Of a DNA stretch of 64,000 bases, positions 12,414 to 20,480 are shown in pieces; positions within the stretch are counted from its first letter, which is position 1, and each line of letters opens with the position of its first letter. Position numbers and translations under genes: made by a program. The stretch comes from Brachybacterium sp. P6-10-X1 (GTDB lineage Bacteria; Actinomycetota; Actinomycetes; Actinomycetales; Dermabacteraceae). The notes under the pieces are model-generated. The model made no database searches. It saw only the letters and a program-made list of their open reading frames with translations, and was not told the DNA's origin. The stretch is taken from assembly GCF_001969445.1 (NCBI RefSeq), contig NZ_CP017297.1, positions 434,001 through 498,000 on the forward strand, in the 5' to 3' direction.

Positions 12414-12443
12414 CTAGATGTAGCTGGTCATGACGTTATCGAC
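12414..12443. repeat. IS481 left terminal inverted repeat
   Basis: 30 bp matching the reverse complement of 13508-13537 at 25 positions, with the shared core ggtcatgacgtt. The first four bases, CTAG, give a TAG stop on both strands: one ends the transposase frame (minus strand), the other the truncated upstream frame (plus strand). Confidence 0.8.
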
Positions 12444-13421
12444 GTTGGCGTGGAGGCGTGAGGCCGGTGGCTGATCGCCGCAGGCGGTGTGTGGGCGATG
12501 GTAGTCATAGTGATGGGTCCAGACGCCGATCGCTTCTCGTCTCTCGCTCTCGGAGTCGTAAGCGCGGGCGTATAGACACTCGTCGGTCATCAGCCGCTGG
12601 TAGCGCTCGATCTTCCCGTTGTGGCGGGGCGTATAGATCCGGGTGCGCTGGTGCCGGCCGATAAACGCACAGGTCGAACGGCGGAACGCCTTAGCGGTGT
12701 AGTTGCTGCCGTTGTCCGTGACCAGGCGAGAGATCCGCGTGATCCCATGCTCGGCGAAGAACACCAGCGCGGTGGAAGAACGCGATCGTCGTCGCGGCGG
12801 TCTCGTCCTCGAGCGCCTCGGTGTAGGCCAGGCGCGAGAACCCGTCCTCCACGGCGTGGAAGTAGGTGTAGCCGACTTTCTGGTCGTGGGATCGCCTGCT
12901 GGCCAGAGCCCTCGTACTGCCGTGGCCATGGACCCGCCAGCCGCCGCCGTCGGGGATCTTCCCGACCTTCTTCACGTCCATGTGGATCATGTGCTCGGGA
13001 TAGCGGGGGTGATCTTCCCTGGTCGGCGCAGATTCTCCCCGTCCGGGGTGATGTTGTGAATCCGGTTCAGACCGAGCCGGTCCAGCCACCGCGTCGCCGT
13101 CCGGACACTGCAGCGGACGTGGTGCCCGTCGATGAGCTCGCGGGCGATGCGGCGGGCAGACCACTTCTTCTTGCGCCGCCAGTGCTCGATCAGCTCCACT
13201 ACTTCCGCGGGCAGACGCGATGGCCGGTTCGCCGGGGCGCTGGAGCGGTCCTCCAGCCCGGCCGCACCGGCAGCTCGGTAGCGACCGACCCACGTCGAGA
13301 GCGTCGCGCGGGCGATGTGGAACTCGGCGGCGACGTGCGCGATCGGCCGGCCACGCTCGAGGACCTGGGCGACGGCGCGCTGCCTTCCGAGCACGGTCAG
13401 CGGGGCATTACGGTGGGTCAC
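12414..13421 (-). pseudogene. IS481-family transposase with two frameshifts
   Basis: Read from a GTG at 13419-13421 (VTHRNAPLTVLGRQR). An N-terminal HTH region (IAHVAAEFHIARATLSTW, then DRSSAP) lies in one frame to about 13000. The first DDE segment, HMDVKKVGKIPDGGG, with Asp, lies in a second frame to about 12775. The segments VTDNGSNYTAK (Asp) and HNGKIERYQR (Glu) lie in a third frame, which runs to the stop. All catalytic residues are still present but spread over three frames, so the gene is broken by two indels. IS481 elements normally encode one uninterrupted ORF of about 320 residues, so programmed frameshifting is unlikely. Confidence 0.85.
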
Positions 13422-13507
13422 GGAACGGGTCTCCTCCCAGCAGATGAATGGCTTCAGCACCACCCATCGTGCAGGTCAGGGACCCGTTCCTTCATCCCCA
13501 CCCCGCT

Positions 13508-13537
13508 GTCTACAACGTCATGACCCGCAACATTTAG
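13508..13537. repeat. IS481 right terminal inverted repeat
   Basis: Partner of 12414-12443. Bases 13534-13536 supply the TAA stop codon of the adjacent sulfatase gene on the minus strand, so the insertion defines or slightly trims that protein's C-terminus. Confidence 0.8.
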
Positions 13538-14967
13538 AAGGGCGCTAGGCGCTCGCGAGAGCGATCCTCAGTGGCTGCGAGCACATCCAGCACGACGCCC
13601 ATCATCTTTGTGCGCTGCTCCTGCTGCGCGGGAACATCCCAGAGGTTGTCTAGCTCATCGGGGTCGGCGGCCAGGTCGTACAGCTCGCCGGTGCGGTCGC
13701 GGTCGGTCGCGGGACGGCCATGGTGCACCACGATCTTCCAGCTCCCGCGCCGCACCATAGTGGTGAACACCGGCGGGTCGTAAGCCCAGCATCCGTCCCG
13801 GTATTCCGAGAGGACCCAGCCACGGTCCTCCCAGTCCTCGCCCCGCCACAGCGGCCCCAGGTCCCGGCCTTCAGCGTGGGGAAGTCCACGGGACCCCGCG
13901 GCGGCCAGGGTCGTGCTGGTGAGGTCGATCCATTCTACGAGCTCCCCGCGCACCTGGCCGGCGGGGACGGTCCCGGGCCGACGCACAATCAGAGGCACCT
14001 TCACCGAGCAGTCAAACATCATCGGCCCTTTGAGCAGCATGCGGTGGTCGCCCAGCATCTCGCCATGGTCGCTGGTAAAGATCACGAGCGTGTCCTCGGC
14101 GAGCCCCTCGCTGTCCAGCGCCCCGAGGATCCGCCCCACCTCCTCGTCCACCAGGGAGACCATGGCGTAGTACTGAGCGATGATTTCCTGTAGCTGCTCC
14201 GGGCTGTAGTCGTCGAATCCCGGCATGTGCCCGGCGTACGACTTCGCCGACTCCTGTTGGTAGATTGCCGGCTTCGTCTCCAGCTCGCCCTCGATGGTGA
14301 CTGGCCGGGGCAGCGACTGCGCGTCGTACATCTCGCGGAACCGTTCGGGGGCCTCGAAGCCGTGATGGGGATCGAAGAAGTTCGCGATGAAGCAGAACGG
14401 CTTGTCCTTGTCGCGGGTGTGCGCGAGGAACTCGATCGTTTCCTCCGCGATCCAGCGGCTGTAGTGCGCTTCCTGGGGGAGCGCGTCGATCGACCGTTGC
14501 CGTTCTACGACGGCGTCGCGGTACAGATCCGGGTGGGTGCGCCGCAGCCAGTTGTGGTACTCGTTCGCGGGGGAGCGCACATAGGGGTCGTGCGCCCAGC
14601 GGAAGATCCGGAAACCGTCGTTCAGCCGCGGCTCGATCCTGCCGGCGAAGGCGGAGCCGAGATGGAACTTCCCGGCGAGTCCGCAGTCGTACCCCTCGTT
14701 GGCCAGGACCGTGGTGAACAGCTCCGTGTCCGGATCCATGTCCACGCCGTTGGCCCACAGGCCGTGGTGGCGCGGATACCTCCCCGTCATCAGACTGCCG
14801 CGGGAGGGCGCGCACACCGGCGACTGGGTGTAACAGTTCTCGAATCGGGTGCCCTGGGCGGCCAAGCGGTCCAGGTGCGGGGTGTGGATGTGTGGATTGC
14901 TGGCGGCACCGAGGGCGTCGTAGCGCTGCTGGTCGGTGCTGATCAGAAGGATGTTCGGGCGGGTCAT
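13534..14967 (-). CDS. type I sulfatase, choline/heparan-sulfatase-like group
   Basis: Predicted 477 residues. N-terminal NILLISTDQQRYDALG gives the metal-binding Asp, and C-A-P-S-R at residues 52-56 is the formylglycine motif (Cys52). FTSDHGEMLGDH in the middle supplies further metal ligands. The C-terminal sub-domain with LYDLAADPDELDNL is typical of sulfatases acting on sulfated sugars. No signal peptide is visible, so a cytoplasmic enzyme acting on imported substrate is likely. It is the last gene of a four-gene minus-strand operon, 39 nt after the second permease. The stop codon lies inside the end of the IS481 element, so a few C-terminal residues may have been lost, though the length is near normal. 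Exact substrate unknown. Confidence 0.9.
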   Translation of the reverse strand: MTRPNILLISTDQQRYDALGAASNPHIHTPHLDRLAAQGTRFENCYTQSPVCAPSRGSLMTGRYPRHHGLWANGVDMDPDTELFTTVLANEGYDCGLAGKFHLGSAFAGRIEPRLNDGFRIFRWAHDPYVRSPANEYHNWLRRTHPDLYRDAVVERQRSIDALPQEAHYSRWIAEETIEFLAHTRDKDKPFCFIANFFDPHHGFEAPERFREMYDAQSLPRPVTIEGELETKPAIYQQESAKSYAGHMPGFDDYSPEQLQEIIAQYYAMVSLVDEEVGRILGALDSEGLAEDTLVIFTSDHGEMLGDHRMLLKGPMMFDCSVKVPLIVRRPGTVPAGQVRGELVEWIDLTSTTLAAAGSRGLPHAEGRDLGPLWRGEDWEDRGWVLSEYRDGCWAYDPPVFTTMVRRGSWKIVVHHGRPATDRDRTGELYDLAADPDELDNLWDVPAQQEQRTKMMGVVLDVLAATEDRSRERLAPF

Positions 14968-15006: not shown

Positions 15007-15903
15007 TCAGTTCTTCACGGCACCGGCGATCCCTTCGACGAAGTGACGCTGGAGCAGCAGGAACAGGGCAAGGATGGGCAGCAGGGAGATCGAAGCGGCT
15101 GCGGCCAGGCCCGCCCAGTCCGTGGAGTTCGTGCCCTGGAAGGCGAGCATCCCCACGGCCACCGTGCGGTTCTCGGGAGTGGAGAAGGTGAACACCAAGG
15201 GCAGGAAGAAGTTGTTCCAGGTGCCCAGGAACGTCAGCACCACCACGGTGGCGGTGACCGGTCCCGACAGCGGCAGCATCACTCGGAAGAACGTGCGCAG
15301 GAAGCCTGCGCCATCGATCACCGCGGCCTCTTCCAGCTCCTTCGGGATCCGGGAGAAGAACCCCATATACAGCAGGACGGCAGCGACATTGCCGCCGCCG
15401 GCCATGGCGAGCACCAACCCCGCGCGAGTGTTCAGCAGGCCCAGCAGGTCGGACAGCTCCACCACGGGCACGATGAATAGGCCGGTGGGGATGAACATCG
15501 TGGCCACCAGCACTGTCATGATGAGCCGGCGGCCCCGAAAGCGGTAGCGAGCGAGCACGTAGCCGGCGGTCGCGCAGCGCACCACCACCAGCACGATGCT
15601 CGCTGCCGTGATGACGACGGAGTTGAGCATGTATTGCGAGAACCCGGCCTCAGACCAGGCTGCGGCGTAGTTCTCGGGGTGCCAGGTCTCAGGGATCAGA
15701 TTAAGGCCGCTCGCGAAAATGTCCAGAGAGTCCTTGAACGAGGCTGAGAGCACCCAGAGCAGCGGGTATAGCCAGACGAGGCCGAGGACTGCGAGCCCGA
15801 GGGTCTGGAGCCAGCGCAGCGCACGCCGAGGGATCCGTCGGTGCTTCGTGAGGGCGGGGCGATCATCCGCGGGGTGGACGGTCGACGTAGCGTCGGCGGT
15901 CAT
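15007..15903 (-). CDS. sugar ABC transporter permease, MalG type
   Basis: Predicted 298 residues with six hydrophobic segments, in the binding-protein-dependent carbohydrate uptake (CUT1) permease family. The EAA loop EEAAVIDGAGFLRTFF, followed by LPL, contacts the ATPase. The ATG at 15901-15903 is chosen because it overlaps the stop of the upstream permease by 4 nt and precedes a short Arg-rich cytoplasmic N-terminus (MTADATSTVHPADDRPALTK). Longer frame extension upstream is antisense-like. Pairs with the MalF-type permease to form the membrane channel. No ATP-binding subunit is in the operon; CUT1 systems of Actinobacteria commonly share one MsiK-type ATPase encoded elsewhere. Confidence 0.92.
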   Translation of the reverse strand: MTADATSTVHPADDRPALTKHRRIPRRALRWLQTLGLAVLGLVWLYPLLWVLSASFKDSLDIFASGLNLIPETWHPENYAAAWSEAGFSQYMLNSVVITAASIVLVVVRCATAGYVLARYRFRGRRLIMTVLVATMFIPTGLFIVPVVELSDLLGLLNTRAGLVLAMAGGGNVAAVLLYMGFFSRIPKELEEAAVIDGAGFLRTFFRVMLPLSGPVTATVVVLTFLGTWNNFFLPLVFTFSTPENRTVAVGMLAFQGTNSTDWAGLAAAASISLLPILALFLLLQRHFVEGIAGAVKN

Positions 15904-16877
15904 CGGTGCCGCTCCTGTCTCCGTCGTGCCAGCGACATCAGGGCGGTCAGCGATCCGATGAGCAGGACGGTGATCACACCGAAGGCGACGCCGATCGCGG
16001 AGGCGTACCCGAGATCCGGGCGGCCGTCGCCGAAGGCCGTGTCGTAGATGTAGACCTCGGTGACCATGGTCGAGAAGAAGGGGCCGCCGCCGGTCATGGT
16101 GACCACCAGATCGAAGATCTGCATGGTCTCCACCACTGTGAGCACTGTGATGATGATGGCGAAGGGTGTCAGCAGCGGCAGCGTCACGTGCCGCAGGCGC
16201 TGCCAGGGTCCGGCTCCGTCGACTTCCGCGGCATCCAGCAGTTCGCGGGGCACGGTCTGCAGTGCGGCCAGCCAGTAGATGAGCGTCACCCCCATCCACT
16301 TCCACACGTGAACCCCCATGACGCTGCCGAGCGCGGTGTCCGAGCTGCCCAGGAAGTCGACGGGCCCCTGGCCCACCAGCTCCAGCAGCGCGTTGACAGG
16401 ACCACTGGAAGGGTCGAGCACGAAGCCCATCAAGATACCTACGATCGCGGTGGTCGCCACCACCGGCACGAAGAACGCGGTGCGCAGCAGCCCGGCGAAG
16501 GGCAGTCGCGGGTCGTTCAGCATCATCGCGAGCACGAGCGAGGCGCCGACGCGGATCGGCACGGTCACCACGATGATCAGCAGTGTGATGCCTAACGACT
16601 TCCAGAACAGATCGTCGGACAGCAGGCGGGCGAAGTTATCCAGTCCGGTGAAGCTGCGGGCCTGTCCGAGACCGCGCCATTCGAGCATCGAGTAGTAGAT
16701 GCTCGAAAGACTCGGCCACACCGTGTACAGCGTGAACAAGATCAGTGTGGGAGCGAGGAAGAGGGCGATCCACCACGGGGAGCGGTTGCCTCCCGGGCCG
16801 TCGGTGGGCGGACGTGCACGACCCGACGGAGGGGCGACCTGCTCCGACGCGGACGACGGTGCGAGAGTCCCGGTCAT
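15900..16877 (-). CDS. sugar ABC transporter permease, MalF type
   Basis: Predicted 325 residues: a Pro/Gly-rich cytoplasmic N-terminus (about 30 residues), then six hydrophobic segments beginning WWIALFLAPTLILFTLYTVW. The EAA loop is DAAEVDGAGPWQRLRHV followed by TLPLL. Belongs to the CUT1 permeases that take up oligosaccharides and related compounds. It starts 12 nt after the binding-protein stop and ends with a 4-nt overlap into the MalG-type gene, so all are one transcript. With the downstream sulfatase, this points to import of a sulfated sugar or glycoside. Confidence 0.92.
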   Translation of the reverse strand: MTGTLAPSSASEQVAPPSGRARPPTDGPGGNRSPWWIALFLAPTLILFTLYTVWPSLSSIYYSMLEWRGLGQARSFTGLDNFARLLSDDLFWKSLGITLLIIVVTVPIRVGASLVLAMMLNDPRLPFAGLLRTAFFVPVVATTAIVGILMGFVLDPSSGPVNALLELVGQGPVDFLGSSDTALGSVMGVHVWKWMGVTLIYWLAALQTVPRELLDAAEVDGAGPWQRLRHVTLPLLTPFAIIITVLTVVETMQIFDLVVTMTGGGPFFSTMVTEVYIYDTAFGDGRPDLGYASAIGVAFGVITVLLIGSLTALMSLARRRQERHR

Positions 16878-16889
16878 CTTCTTCCCTCC

Positions 16890-18344
16890 TCAGTACTTCG
16901 TCGCGTCGTAGTCGTCGCCAAGGTGGTAGTCCTCGAAGACCCAGTCATCGAGGGAGACCTCGGTGCCGTCGGCGGTGACGGCGTCGATCGCCTTCTCCCG
17001 CTCCGCGGTGACGGCGTGCGAATAGGTCTTCAATGCGGATCGTGCGTCGTCGAGGTCGCCGCCCAGGTAGCCCTGGGCGATCTCGCCCAGGTTCGGGCGT
17101 ACGTCGTCCATTTGTGCAATGACGGTCCCGACGGCCGCGTTGCGGGCTACCGGGCTGGGAGCGAGGAAGCAGTTCTTGCGGAAGATGCCGATCGCCGCGG
17201 CGTAAGCGTCCGCAACATCGGCGGAGCTCACGGCGTCGAGGTCGGTGGGAGGCTGATCCATGTTCGCCGCGAGGGCGGCGCTGAACTCCGGCCGAGTGAG
17301 CAGGGAGAACAAGCCGCCGACGGCGTCGACGTGGGTGGAGGCCGCGTTGCGCCAGAACTGGCCCTCGGCCGGTCCGCGGGCAGTGACGCCCTTTCCGTCG
17401 GGCGAGGGCACGTTCGACACCGCCAATACCGGCAGAAAGTCCGCGAACTCGCCGGCCACCACGCCGGCATTCCACGGGCCGTCGAAGAAGATCGCGGCAT
17501 CACCGGAAGCCCAGCGCACCCGCGCCTCCCGTGCGTCCAGAGAGGTCGAGGCGGGGAGCATGTATCCGTCGGAGATCAGGGACTTCAGGAACTCGAGTGA
17601 GTCGACGAATGCGTCGGCGTGGAATACGTACTCGCCGGTGGCGGGATCGGTGACGCCTGCGCTGCCGCCGCCGTGGGCCAACGCCTGACCGGCGGCCTGG
17701 GCCAGGTCCACCAGATGCTCGCCCATGCGGTCGGGAAACGCCAGGTTCGTGATCCACGGACTTGTGGTGCCGGCAGAGACCAGATCGGCGCAGAGTGAGC
17801 GGAATCCATCCCAACTGAGCGCCCCGGCATCCGGGTCGTGACCTGCAGCCTGCACCATCTCCCGGTTCATCCAGGCAAGGCTCGAATGCTGCTGGTGGCT
17901 GAAGATCGGGACTGAGTGCACCTGTCCGTCGAAGACGTGGATTCCCTCGAACAGCACCTCGGCGACCGCTTGCTGGGCTTCGTCGTCCAGCGTGACTGGG
18001 CCCACGGTGCCGTCGGCGACCAGGGCGGCCGACGGGACGCTGAAGAGATTCGTGAACACGTCCGGCAGCTGATCGCTGGTCTGAGCGAGCTGGAGAGCCT
18101 GGCCCATGTCGTTGGGGTTGTAGACGGTGCGTTCGACCTCCGCTCCGCCGTCGGCGGCGAAATCGTCGAAAAGACCCGTCAGGGCCTTCTCCAAGGGGTC
18201 GAAGTGGTCCCACCACAGCACATTCGAGGACCCTTCACCGGCTCCGCCATCCCCGGAGGACGACGAGCGGGAGCAGGCGGTCGCGGACGTGGCGGATGCG
18301 AGTGCGGTGAGGGCGAGTAATCGGCGGCGGGTGATGATGACCAT
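16890..18344 (-). CDS. sugar ABC transporter substrate-binding lipoprotein
   Basis: Predicted 484 residues, solute-binding family 1 type for carbohydrate importers. N-terminus has a twin-arginine-like TRRRLLALTAL stretch and the lipobox TATAC, so Cys24 should be lipidated and the protein anchored outside the membrane. Mature part begins with Ser/Gly linker, then WWDHFDPLEKALTGLFDDF, the typical first strand and helix. It is first in the operon, with its own promoter (18387-18415) and a LacI-type palindrome in the leader. High expression relative to the permeases is usual for this layout. The ligand is unknown; a sulfated carbohydrate is likely from the neighbouring sulfatase. Confidence 0.92.
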   Translation of the reverse strand: MVIITRRRLLALTALASATSATACSRSSSSGDGGAGEGSSNVLWWDHFDPLEKALTGLFDDFAADGGAEVERTVYNPNDMGQALQLAQTSDQLPDVFTNLFSVPSAALVADGTVGPVTLDDEAQQAVAEVLFEGIHVFDGQVHSVPIFSHQQHSSLAWMNREMVQAAGHDPDAGALSWDGFRSLCADLVSAGTTSPWITNLAFPDRMGEHLVDLAQAAGQALAHGGGSAGVTDPATGEYVFHADAFVDSLEFLKSLISDGYMLPASTSLDAREARVRWASGDAAIFFDGPWNAGVVAGEFADFLPVLAVSNVPSPDGKGVTARGPAEGQFWRNAASTHVDAVGGLFSLLTRPEFSAALAANMDQPPTDLDAVSSADVADAYAAAIGIFRKNCFLAPSPVARNAAVGTVIAQMDDVRPNLGEIAQGYLGGDLDDARSALKTYSHAVTAEREKAIDAVTADGTEVSLDDWVFEDYHLGDDYDATKY

Positions 18345-18364
18345 GGAGGCTCCTGAAGGTCGTG

Positions 18365-18378
18365 GTACGACGTTGTAC
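18365..18378. promoter_or_regulatory. candidate LacI-family operator
   Basis: 14-bp near-perfect palindrome gtacgacgttgtac (12 of 14 symmetric positions) with the central ACGT/CG-type symmetry of many LacI-family sites. It falls just after the predicted transcription start of the binding-protein operon and 21 bp before its start codon, where a bound repressor would block transcription. A related half-site, gtacgtta, lies nearer the divergent regulator gene. Confidence 0.55.
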
Positions 18379-18386
18379 TGGCGTGG

Positions 18387-18415
18387 ACGCTAGACGGGCT
18401 CGTCAGGACTGTCAA
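18387..18415 (-). promoter_or_regulatory. promoter of the ABC transporter/sulfatase operon
   Basis: On the minus strand a perfect -35 TTGACA (18410-18415) is followed by a 17-bp spacer and a -10 TAGCGT (18387-18392). Transcription would start near 18380, directly before the palindrome at 18365-18378. Confidence 0.65.
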
Positions 18416-18545
18416 CGCACAGAGAGAAGCAAATTGGCACGTCAAGGCCAGTCGAGTGCCGACTGTTTGGACAGCGAGTGCCGCTTCAGTGATACAGAAC
18501 AATCGGTACGTTAAGCTCTGCGCGAGGACGATGTGAGGAGCCCCC

Positions 18546-20480
18546 ATGGCCAGACGACCAGCGGCCCCGCTGAGGCTGCGAGCGGGAGACCGGGAGGTGC
18601 TGGAGACGGTCGCTGAGGGCACCGATCCCGCCGCAGCACAACGGGCGAGAATCCTCCTCGCTGCGGCCGACGGCATCTCGAATACCGAGATCGCCGAAAG
18701 CCTCGGCGCCTCGCGACAGAGCGTTCTACGATGGCGCGGCCGCTACGGCGCCGAAGGGGTCGACTGCCTCCGGGACCGTCCGCGGCCGGGTCGCCCACAG
18801 GCGCTGAGCCCGGCGGAGATCGTAGCGCGGGCCCTGCGGGCGCCGAGTTCGGCGGAGGCCGCGAGCGGGCGCTGGAGCACACGCACACTCGCGAACGCTC
18901 TGGGAATCAGCTCCGCGACGGTTGCGCGAGCCTGGACTCAGTACGGTCTGGCTCCCTCCGAGGCCGGTGCGCTCGAGTTCGACACCCGGCCGACGATGAT
19001 CCTCCGCCCCGGACGCATCGTGGGGCTCCTGCTGAACCCGCCCGTCGGCCTCGTGGCCTTCGTCGAAGCGGAGCGCGAGGCGGACGGGCACTCGGCGGGG
19101 GAGGCCCCCGCGCGCCAGGGACCGAGACGAGCCGGATTGGAGGCCGCGCGAGAGATCGCAGCCGAGCTCGCCGCAGCACGCGCCCACGAAGATCGCACCG
19201 GTGTCGCCCACCCCTCCGAGAAGGATGTCGCGGAGTTCCTGGAGAATGCCCGTGAGCGCGGAGCGCAGGTGATCGGCACCGGGGCCGGCATCCAGGAGAC
19301 CGGAGAAACGGCGGCGGTTGACACCTTCTCCGAGTGGCGACGGGCCGTTGAGGCACTCACCGTGGCAGCAGCGGTCGCCGGCGACGTCGACGGGCTGAGC
19401 TCTCTCCGAGAGCGCTTGCGGGACTCTGCCATCTCCGCGGATACCGTCATCTGGTCTGACGGCGACGTATCCATCGCGCGACCCTCGCGCGTGACGATGC
19501 GGGACGTCGCGACCGCGGCCGACGTGTCGATCAAGACGGTCTCAAACGCTCTCACCGGCGCAAAGCACGTCGCACCGGGCACTCAGCGCCGTATCGATCA
19601 CGCCGTCCGGGAGCTCGGCTATCAGGTGAACACCGCAGCCCGCCAGCTGCGCACCGGGCGTCACGGCGCGTTGGTGCTCGCTGTCCCTGAGCTCCGCCTG
19701 AGCTACTTCGCGGAACTGGCCGAGAAGATCATCGACGAAGCCGAACGCCACCAGTTGAGCGTGCTCGTCCAGACCACCCGAGGAGATCTGCATCGGGAGC
19801 TCCGCGTCATCGATAGCGCACGGCGCCGAGCCGATGGGCTGATCATCGCCGCCCACGCGTTACGCCACGACACCCTGAGCCGCCTGACCACTACTGGCCC
19901 CCTCGTCGTGCTCGGCGAGGCGGTCCAAGGAATCGGCGCCGATCAGATCACCATCAGCAATGCCGACGCCGCGACGACCGCCATGGACCACCTCTTAGAG
20001 ATCGGTCGCCGTCGCGTAGTCATGCTGGGTATCGCACCCCGCGCCGTGGCCGAAGCGCGGGTTCGGGGATGCCGAGCCTCGGCCGACCGCCATGGAGTGG
20101 ACCTCGACCCAGCGCTCATGCTCCCTGCCACCTTGTGGCGCCGCGACGAAGGCGAACGGGCGCTGCTGGAGCTGCTGGACCGGGGCGTCCCCTTTGACGC
20201 TGTCGTCGGCTTCAACGACGAGCTCGCTCTCGGCGCTCAGCACGCCCTGCTGGCCCGGGGAGTGAACATCCCCGAGGACGTCGCCGTCATCGGCTTCGAC
20301 AACTCCAACGACGCCGTCTACTCCACCCCCGGTCTCACCTCGATTGCGCCGGCCTTCGACGTCATCGCCCGCACGGCAGTTTCCTTGGTGACGGATTATC
20401 CTGCAAAGGGCAGTTCGCGAGACGCGCCAATTCACGTCATTGCCCCACACCGACTCATGGTGCGCGGTTCCACCTCCTGA
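18546..20480 (+). CDS. LacI-family regulator fused to an IS630-type transposase DNA-binding domain
   Basis: Predicted 644 residues, about twice a normal LacI protein. Residues ~8-84 match the N-terminus of IS630/Tc1-type transposases: RARILLAAADGISNTEIAES, then SRQSVLRWRGRYGAEGV and RPRPGRP. Residues ~108-134 (WSTRTLANALGISSATVARAW) match their second HTH. Residues ~155-176 (RIVGLLLNPPVGLVAFVEAE) align with the first catalytic strand, but where active transposases have Asp in V-D-E-K this has V-E-A-E; the remaining DDE core is absent. After a ~130-residue Ala/Glu-rich linker, residues ~315-372 form a LacI HTH (RVTMRDVATAADVSIKTVSNAL) and ~373-644 the LacI sugar-binding domain. It is divergent from the ABC/sulfatase operon and is probably its repressor. 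GGAG lies 7-8 nt before the ATG. The frame is continuous with strong GC3, so the fusion looks genuine. Confidence 0.85.
   Translation: MARRPAAPLRLRAGDREVLETVAEGTDPAAAQRARILLAAADGISNTEIAESLGASRQSVLRWRGRYGAEGVDCLRDRPRPGRPQALSPAEIVARALRAPSSAEAASGRWSTRTLANALGISSATVARAWTQYGLAPSEAGALEFDTRPTMILRPGRIVGLLLNPPVGLVAFVEAEREADGHSAGEAPARQGPRRAGLEAAREIAAELAAARAHEDRTGVAHPSEKDVAEFLENARERGAQVIGTGAGIQETGETAAVDTFSEWRRAVEALTVAAAVAGDVDGLSSLRERLRDSAISADTVIWSDGDVSIARPSRVTMRDVATAADVSIKTVSNALTGAKHVAPGTQRRIDHAVRELGYQVNTAARQLRTGRHGALVLAVPELRLSYFAELAEKIIDEAERHQLSVLVQTTRGDLHRELRVIDSARRRADGLIIAAHALRHDTLSRLTTTGPLVVLGEAVQGIGADQITISNADAATTAMDHLLEIGRRRVVMLGIAPRAVAEARVRGCRASADRHGVDLDPALMLPATLWRRDEGERALLELLDRGVPFDAVVGFNDELALGAQHALLARGVNIPEDVAVIGFDNSNDAVYSTPGLTSIAPAFDVIARTAVSLVTDYPAKGSSRDAPIHVIAPHRLMVRGSTS

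Follow-up and report, generated by a model that had tools for sequence, protein, structure and literature searches.

A LacI-family regulator fused to an IS630-type transposase half in Brachybacterium and its relatives: a probable transposase-capture transcription factor

The window analysed here is a stretch of 64,000 nucleotides of DNA from Brachybacterium sp. P6-10-X1. Based on profile and tree comparisons, it was concluded that the N-terminal half of one of its gene products descends from an IS630 transposase, and homology searches placed the fusion in one conserved clade of ten species. The sequences strongly indicated that a whole element was captured by loss of the transposase stop codon and decayed afterwards. 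We proposed that the product is probably a transposase-capture transcription factor, in which a whole IS630 was fused to a LacI regulator by stop loss and the N-terminal half would act as a second DNA-binding module.

The fusion gene and its protein

The following features were assigned to the gene.

18535..18540, plus strand: GAGGAG, Shine-Dalgarno-like, ahead of the start codon (sequence and survey of the fusions)
18546..20480, plus strand: IS630-LacI fusion regulator gene, 644 residues in a single frame from an ATG start, orthologues known
18639..18956, plus strand: IS630-type helix-turn-helix (HTH) pair, residues 32-137 (NF033545, E 9.8e-18; profile and model matches)
18783..18797, plus strand: RPGRP linker joining the two HTHs, residues 80-84, AT-hook-like (compare the Tc3 and ISY100 transposases)
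19020..19073, plus strand: relic of the first DDE catalytic strand, residues 159-176, with Ala175 in place of Asp (hhalign match)
19074..19469, plus strand: probable remainder of the DDE core, shortened and remodelled, residues 177-308 (collinear in the joint alignment)
19464..19487, plus strand: possible weak relic of the right IS630 terminal repeat, codons 307-314 (best junction site, in frame)
19488..20477, plus strand: complete LacI-family regulator, residues 315-644 (Pfam and NCBIfam)

The initial annotation had described one 644-residue frame that joins an IS630-like HTH pair to a full LacI regulator, and the open reading frame, NCBIfam, Pfam and the profile-profile comparison all agreed with it. 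The NCBIfam IS630 model NF033545 matched residues 32-137 (E 9.8e-18, 64.6 bits); the cut-off of this model, set for a whole transposase, is 100 bits, which the fusion missed, and an intact relative scored 283. The LacI-type NCBIfam models covered residues 315-643. All Pfam matches were above their cut-offs, namely HTH_29 (33-92), HTH_32 (60-130), LacI (317-362; 45.0 bits against a cut-off of 27) and the periplasmic-binding-like sensor domain Peripla_BP_3 (481-643; 86.9 against 26.5). The transposase DNA-binding domain is in frame with a host regulatory protein, as is characteristic of host-transposase fusions, and the LacI HTH begins at residue 315-317, unlike the N-terminal HTH expected of a LacI-family chain. 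The GC content by codon position was similar in the transposase and LacI halves, and it was lowest at position 2.

The number of residues ahead of the LacI part ranged from 239 to 379 across the species. In two Brachybacterium orthologues (L012 and L013) the linker before the LacI part was up to ~65 residues longer than that of the window, at about residues 318-378.

Distribution of the fusion

The N-terminal module was found in 5 of the 38 genomes of the genus, and all five copies were joined to LacI. When 396 genomes of the order were searched with a profile, five further LacI fusions came to light, all in a second family, four of them in a single genus and the fifth in another; fusions were present in 5 of the 24 genomes of this second family, and a dedicated search of those 24 raised no extra one. 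The set includes Brachybacterium sp. YJGR34, B. halotolerans, B. subflavum, Ruania rhizosphaerae and Pseudactinotalea suaedae. A sample of 396 genomes from the phylum returned the genome of the window, some long frames, and frames and fragments of the IS630 type. The best five candidates were scored per genome in the order and phylum searches, hence ten species is a lower bound. The search for the same two-domain order, which had been suggested as a check, returned orthologous fusions in at least ten species of two families. An assembly accident was rejected, as the fusion occurs in ten species.

The module matched once in the genome of the window (G000) and lay at the same locus in every species; that is, it is not a multi-copy mobile element. 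Elsewhere in the same genome, an IS630-like frame was observed at locus L051 (G000:C1:3677656-3678513, minus strand), with an open frame of 352 residues that matched model positions 3-299 with 75.6 of the 100 bits of the family cut-off.

IS630 ancestry of the N-terminal half

The comparison of a profile of ten fusion modules with a profile of twelve IS630 transposases gave an E value of 1.6e-43 with 45% identity over residues 1-176. The alignment began at residue 1 of both and ran through the first catalytic strand, where VGLLLNPPVGLVAFVEAE of the fusion modules stood against VGLYLNPPENAVVLCVDE of IS630. When the ten fusions were placed in a tree together with 33 IS630 rows, they formed one clade (100/99), which was nested in IS630 beside actinobacterial IS630s. 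Those rows were the loci, out of 45 listed, whose frame was intact and contained DEK(S/T)Q or DVKPQ as well as WxNx(V/I)E, while alignment A7 held nine of the ten fusions, the Pseudactinotalea row being left out. The claimed IS630 origin of the N-terminal half held by NF033545, by the profile comparison and by the tree. A non-transposase regulator family over residues 1-176, named beforehand as the result that would speak against this origin, was not found in the Pfam and NCBIfam libraries.

The invariant positions of the ten fusions cluster in the HTH pair and the RxGRP linker, of which R80, G82, R83 and P84 were invariant in all ten. An AT-hook role has been described for a linker of this type (PMC2170065), and in the IS630-family transposase ISY100 the N-terminal HTH pair with the AT-hook-like region footprints its 24-bp repeat (PMC2170065).

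The only PDB match by sequence profile at E 0.01 was the DNA-binding domain of SETMAR (7s03, E 3.3e-5). The AF2 model of the module reached a pLDDT of 81.9. In the structural check that had been proposed, the modelled HTH pair resembled the DNA-binding domains of Pax, Mos1 and SETMAR at a middling Z of about 6, but the same value was reached by sigma-factor region 4 and other HTH folds.

Catalytic residues and remains of the core

By alignment, the first and the second catalytic Asp were absent in all ten fusions (one row has a gap at the first), and the third triad position was occupied by E in two, D in three, T in two and R in three of them. The initial annotation had read a change from V-D-E-K to V-E-A-E. 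The relic of the first strand and the loss of its Asp were confirmed, but the residue aligned opposite the first catalytic Asp is Ala175 and not Glu174. Taken alone, the relic gave an E value of about 0.001-0.002, and none of 100 column shuffles equalled it.

The rest of the core had been considered gone. It has indeed become shorter and been remodelled, yet some members retain traces that are collinear with the C-terminus of the transposase, and residues 177-308 are probably what remains of the DDE core. The sequence evidence beyond the first strand is weak and at most suggestive. When the profiles of the middle region and of the DDE core were compared, nothing past the first strand was significant. 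Column shuffles did as well as the C-terminal half against the DDE core in 1 of 100 local and 19 of 100 global alignments, and as well as the part past the first strand in 2 and 64 of 100, respectively. The collinear placement of residues 177-308 comes from the joint alignment and leans on it. These residues were not recognised as an RNase H-like core by profile or fold search. The middle domain alone was predicted by AF2 as a compact alpha/beta domain (pTM 0.79); a fold search with it gave no PDB match, which does not speak against an RNase H fold.

Relics of the IS630 ends

In 12 of 13 related intact IS630s the left terminal repeat, with the consensus CTAGTGTCGCGTGTCGTTAGTTCC, begins at -47 to -56 from the transposase start. 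In 10 of the 13 the stop codon of the transposase is the TAG of the CACTAG end, i.e., the outermost triplet of the right repeat. A repeat matrix was built from 12 ends; the more distant L045 and L085 were left out, and L026 gave no CTAG end.

Whole-locus scans with this matrix were performed for the fusion loci of Ruania (G136, L126; 35734 positions) and of genome G149 (L217; 8888 positions), and each returned just two sites scoring at least 8. One was a relic of the left repeat at -50 in the right orientation, with scores of 12.7 in Ruania and 15.4 in G149. The other was an inverted relic of the right repeat at codons 285-292 (16.0 and 13.0, respectively), which lies 14 codons ahead of the LacI HTH. 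Its reading frame is the one used by the C-terminus of the transposase, with a sense codon where the stop once stood. The relic ends share 15-17 of 24 positions with the repeat consensus. In position-restricted shuffles, the p values in G136 and G149, respectively, were 0.009 and 0.003 at the left end, and 0.0045 and 0.0175 at the right. Across 75 other loci, which together offered 2.33 million positions, a score of at least 12 was reached 7 times, once by a near-perfect repeat with 36.7. Ruania and G149 are close relatives, so their relic ends count as one lineage.

Because both ends of the insertion sequence bracket the module, a whole element would have been captured, and the core would have shrunk later. 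The transposase capture put forward in the initial annotation stood with respect to the IS630 origin and the fusion to LacI, but the relics of both ends indicate that more than the DNA-binding domain was captured.

Degenerate ends of this kind, in the place of the flanking terminal inverted repeats of a mobile element, were found in G136 and G149 alone. At the junction in the window (codons 307-314) the p value was 0.038, which was lost on correction for ten loci. The junction of G225 (p 0.028) and the upstream regions of G066 (p 0.046) and Pseudactinotalea (p 0.019) likewise did not survive the ten-locus correction. The junctions of G066 (p 0.45) and Pseudactinotalea (p 0.95) and the upstream region of G225 (p 0.24) were negative for a relic, as were all tests beyond those named. 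No left-repeat relic was found by shuffles upstream of the five Brachybacterium loci including the window (p 0.15 to 0.66), and an upstream repeat relic in this genus was rejected after both strands of 200 bp had been scanned (lowest p 0.082).

The adjoining operon, the divergent promoter and the operator

The gene cluster on the other side of the divergent region and the elements of its promoter are listed below.

13534..14967, minus strand: sulfatase (arylsulfatase and choline-sulfatase models below their cut-offs; synteny)
15007..15921, minus strand: sugar ABC permease 2, start uncertain (models and synteny)
15900..16877, minus strand: sugar ABC permease 1 (models and synteny)
16890..18344, minus strand: sugar ABC substrate-binding protein (SBP), divergent from the fusion (position and synteny)
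18364..18379, no strand: candidate LacI-type operator GGTACGACGTTGTACT, a near-palindrome with central CG (variants in all ten divergent regions)
18387..18392, minus strand: SBP promoter -10 box TAGCGT, 7 bp from the operator (alignment of the divergent regions and sequence)
18410..18415, minus strand: SBP promoter -35 box TTGACA (GTCAA kept in all ten regions; 17-bp spacing read from the sequence)

The SBP had no NCBIfam match at E 1e-5, and its name therefore rests on its neighbours. The fusion was divergent from the same SBP gene in all ten loci. An orthologue of this gene (at least 57% identity) was present in 10 of the 396 genomes of the order, which were precisely those with the fusion, and it adjoined the fusion in each; the next-best SBP was 42% identical. 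Among 20 weaker SBP loci examined, of 45 weaker matches listed, neither half of the fusion was found in the 1.5-kb flanks. Synteny was compared in nine loci, one per other species, three of which were too short to show anything past the SBP. The order in which the permeases and the sulfatase followed was identical in the window and in the six orthologous loci long enough to show it (L014-L017, L126 and L128). Just downstream of the sulfatase gene, at 12420-13470 on the minus strand, a degenerate IS481-type transposase was observed, split over two frames (P0007, E 2.1e-26; P0008, E 1e-13).

A 16-bp even near-palindrome with a central CG (GGTACATCGTTGTACC and variants) occurred in all ten divergent regions. 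LacI operators are mostly even palindromes with a central CG (PMC4052901). In the window, the promoter reads TTGACA-N17-TAGCGT, and the operator follows its -10 box after 7 bp. The earlier claim that the fusion stands divergent from a sugar-ABC/sulfatase operon which it would control gained support from the arrangement of all ten loci and from the conserved LacI-type operator in that promoter. No second broadly conserved site was found in the ten divergent regions. The exact operator 15-mer occurred once in the genome, followed by five sites with two mismatches; sites with at most three mismatches numbered 60, against 38 in a reversed-pattern control, a modest excess. These counts did not establish a wider regulon.

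Proposed origin and function of the fusion

The sequences strongly indicated that an entire IS630 element landed directly ahead of a LacI gene beside the sugar operon, that the stop codon of its transposase was then lost, allowing in-frame read-through into LacI, and that the catalytic core decayed and shrank after the fusion. The LacI half, as a dimer seated just downstream of the -10 box, may repress the operon and would be released from the operator by the binding of a sugar.

The architecture of HTH pair and AT-hook is kept, as in ISY100, which suggests that the N-terminal half is a second DNA reader. This reader would be independent of the LacI half and ancestrally specific for the left terminal repeat that fronted its own gene; in Ruania, the relic of this repeat lies ~165 bp from the LacI operator. 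Binding by the N-terminal half could result in autoregulation, in tighter tethering or in a loop across the divergent promoters. As a single operator is conserved, the second binding site is a predicted one. In Brachybacterium, where no upstream repeat relic is detectable, the module would have changed its site or taken another role.

Constraint on the N-terminal half and alternative explanations

Pairwise dN/dS values (NG86) were estimated for five pairs in three parts each, the HTH pair, the core and the LacI half. Between the window and its nearest relative YJGR34 they were 0.159, 0.535 and 0.152, respectively. The four other pairs gave 0.43-0.58 for the HTH pair, 0.23-0.64 for the core and 0.05-0.33 for the LacI half, with the HTH pair above the LacI half in each. 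All the point estimates, in three parts of five pairs, were below 1, as under purifying selection. The HTH pair was thus strongly constrained in one of the five comparisons and moderately in the other four.

Some of these values favour a different role of the transposase half. It may be translated and yet have no specific DNA binding, serving as a linker or as an oligomerisation or stability domain, when the LacI half alone regulates. We considered this rather unlikely. It would agree with the core dN/dS of 0.52-0.64 in four of the five pairs, with the variable length ahead of the LacI part, and with divergent regions in which the LacI-type operator is the sole broadly conserved site (10 of 10). 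In G149 versus G136, moreover, the HTH pair (0.58) was under weaker constraint than the core (0.23). However, a mere linker does not account for the clustering of the invariant positions of ten fusions in the HTH pair and the RxGRP linker, nor for the comparison of the window with YJGR34, where the HTH pair was 82% and the core 56% identical and dN/dS of the HTH pair was 0.16.

Improbable, in our estimate, is an internal start that yields a plain LacI repressor too, so that long and short forms coexist and compete. An in-frame ATG, often a GTG as well, was present at the LacI boundary in all ten fusions. But no in-frame start within 25 codons of that boundary had a Shine-Dalgarno-like sequence within 16 bp in any of the ten, whereas such a sequence preceded the annotated start in nine. 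Based on this survey and on the domain matches, the fusion is present in the sequence and is most likely translated from residue 1. A start downstream of about residue 300, which the initial annotation had named as fatal to its reading, found no near-boundary in-frame codon with ribosome-binding support.

It is very improbable that the transposase half silences resident IS630s by occupying their terminal repeats. A binding domain of the transposase type is retained without the catalytic aspartates, and inhibition is plausible in principle; however, the module search matched the fusion alone in G149 and G136 (at E 1e-6 among the best five candidates and at E 1e-12 among 97 scored), so that no close IS630 target was seen there, and silencing leaves the constant linkage to one sugar operon unexplained. 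That the N-terminal half is the ordinary HTH pair of a host regulator, merely resembling transposases, is scarcely credible: Pfam HTH_29 and HTH_32 are generic, with weak scores from many HTH families, and the predicted fold is common to sigma factors and others, but a generic HTH regulator is contradicted and was rejected by the profile-profile homology, which begins at residue 1 and takes in the first catalytic strand, and by a fusion clade lying among IS630 rows, and the element ends that flank the module in one lineage also stand against it.

Relation to known systems

The transposase-capture reading places the fusion between known families. It shares with the IS630 elements (Tc1/mariner-type, e.g., ISY100) the HTH pair, the AT-hook-like linker, the N-terminal start and the first catalytic strand, and in two fusion species the relics of the terminal repeats. 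Unlike them, it is single-copy at a fixed locus, has lost both Asp residues in all ten species, has a shortened core and no transposase stop, and carries LacI. With the LacI-family sugar regulators it has in common the LacI HTH, the periplasmic-binding-like domain and the 16-bp even near-palindrome beside a sugar ABC operon, but its LacI HTH is preceded by 314 residues that contribute another DNA-binding domain. In the scan that named the relatives, the best unfused LacI reached 45% identity in the LacI part.

The capture of transposases as transcription factors has been documented in animals (PMC10027918, PMC12062965), the vertebrate cases being those of Cosby et al. 2021 as cited in PMC12062965. 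As in SETMAR, KRABINER and CSB-PGBD3, a transposase part is in frame with a host gene, and the fusion profile matches the SETMAR domain. In contrast to these, the present fusion is bacterial and its partner is itself a complete DNA-binding regulator; CSB-PGBD3 is described as formed by splicing, whereas the present fusion apparently arose by stop-codon loss at the end of an insertion sequence.

The TldR proteins, TnpB-related RNA-guided regulators, are similar in that a transposon-type protein has become a bacterial transcription regulator. They originate from TnpB, which, however, is an RNA-guided nuclease and not a DDE transposase, and TldR is not known to be fused to a classical regulator.

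In a 2022 review of the recruitment of prokaryotic mobile elements, the passages on this subject name Xre-type repressors and antitoxins as sources of transcription factors and show no regulator derived from a DDE transposase (PMC8987985). Judged by the titles and abstract openings of the open-licence literature searched, there was no bacterial precedent, and TldR of the TnpB type was the one related case. The route of capture is unusually legible, since both ends of the element are traceable in one lineage and the fusion took place right at the stop codon of the transposase. The way in which an insertion beside a regulator gene turns into a two-headed regulator could be tested in bacteria.

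A second family of fusions

A single actinobacterial domestication of IS630 may, tentatively, have produced a reusable DNA-binding module that was joined to LacI in ten species and also to regulators of an unrelated family, GntR-FCD. If so, it would be a bacterial counterpart to the vertebrate transposase-capture transcription factors, and the repressors would read two unrelated sites, one of them derived from the transposon's own ends. The proposal rests on frames of 513-610 residues in another genus and family, in which a shorter relative of the HTH pair is joined to a GntR-FCD regulator. The HTH pair of the GntR fusions matched both IS630 (E 5.8e-14) and the LacI-fusion module (E 1.2e-18). 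In a joint tree, which took 10 of 32 GntR modules, the LacI and GntR fusions formed one clade against IS630 (100/99.5), with both branches long. The LacI fusions do not form one clade in this tree, and this split, together with the fast evolution of both groups, makes long-branch attraction possible. The comparison of the GntR-type with the LacI-type middle profile was not significant.

The GntR-FCD fusions were located at L078-L083 and L244-L273 (families f7 and f15). Four of the frames were scanned with Pfam, where FCD was above its cut-off in all four and GntR in two. Of the 57 genomes of that genus, 51 matched the module at E 1e-12, and in 42 the match reached E 1e-53 or better. The GntR start motif was present in all 30 loci fetched from the genus, and two more loci were found in another family.
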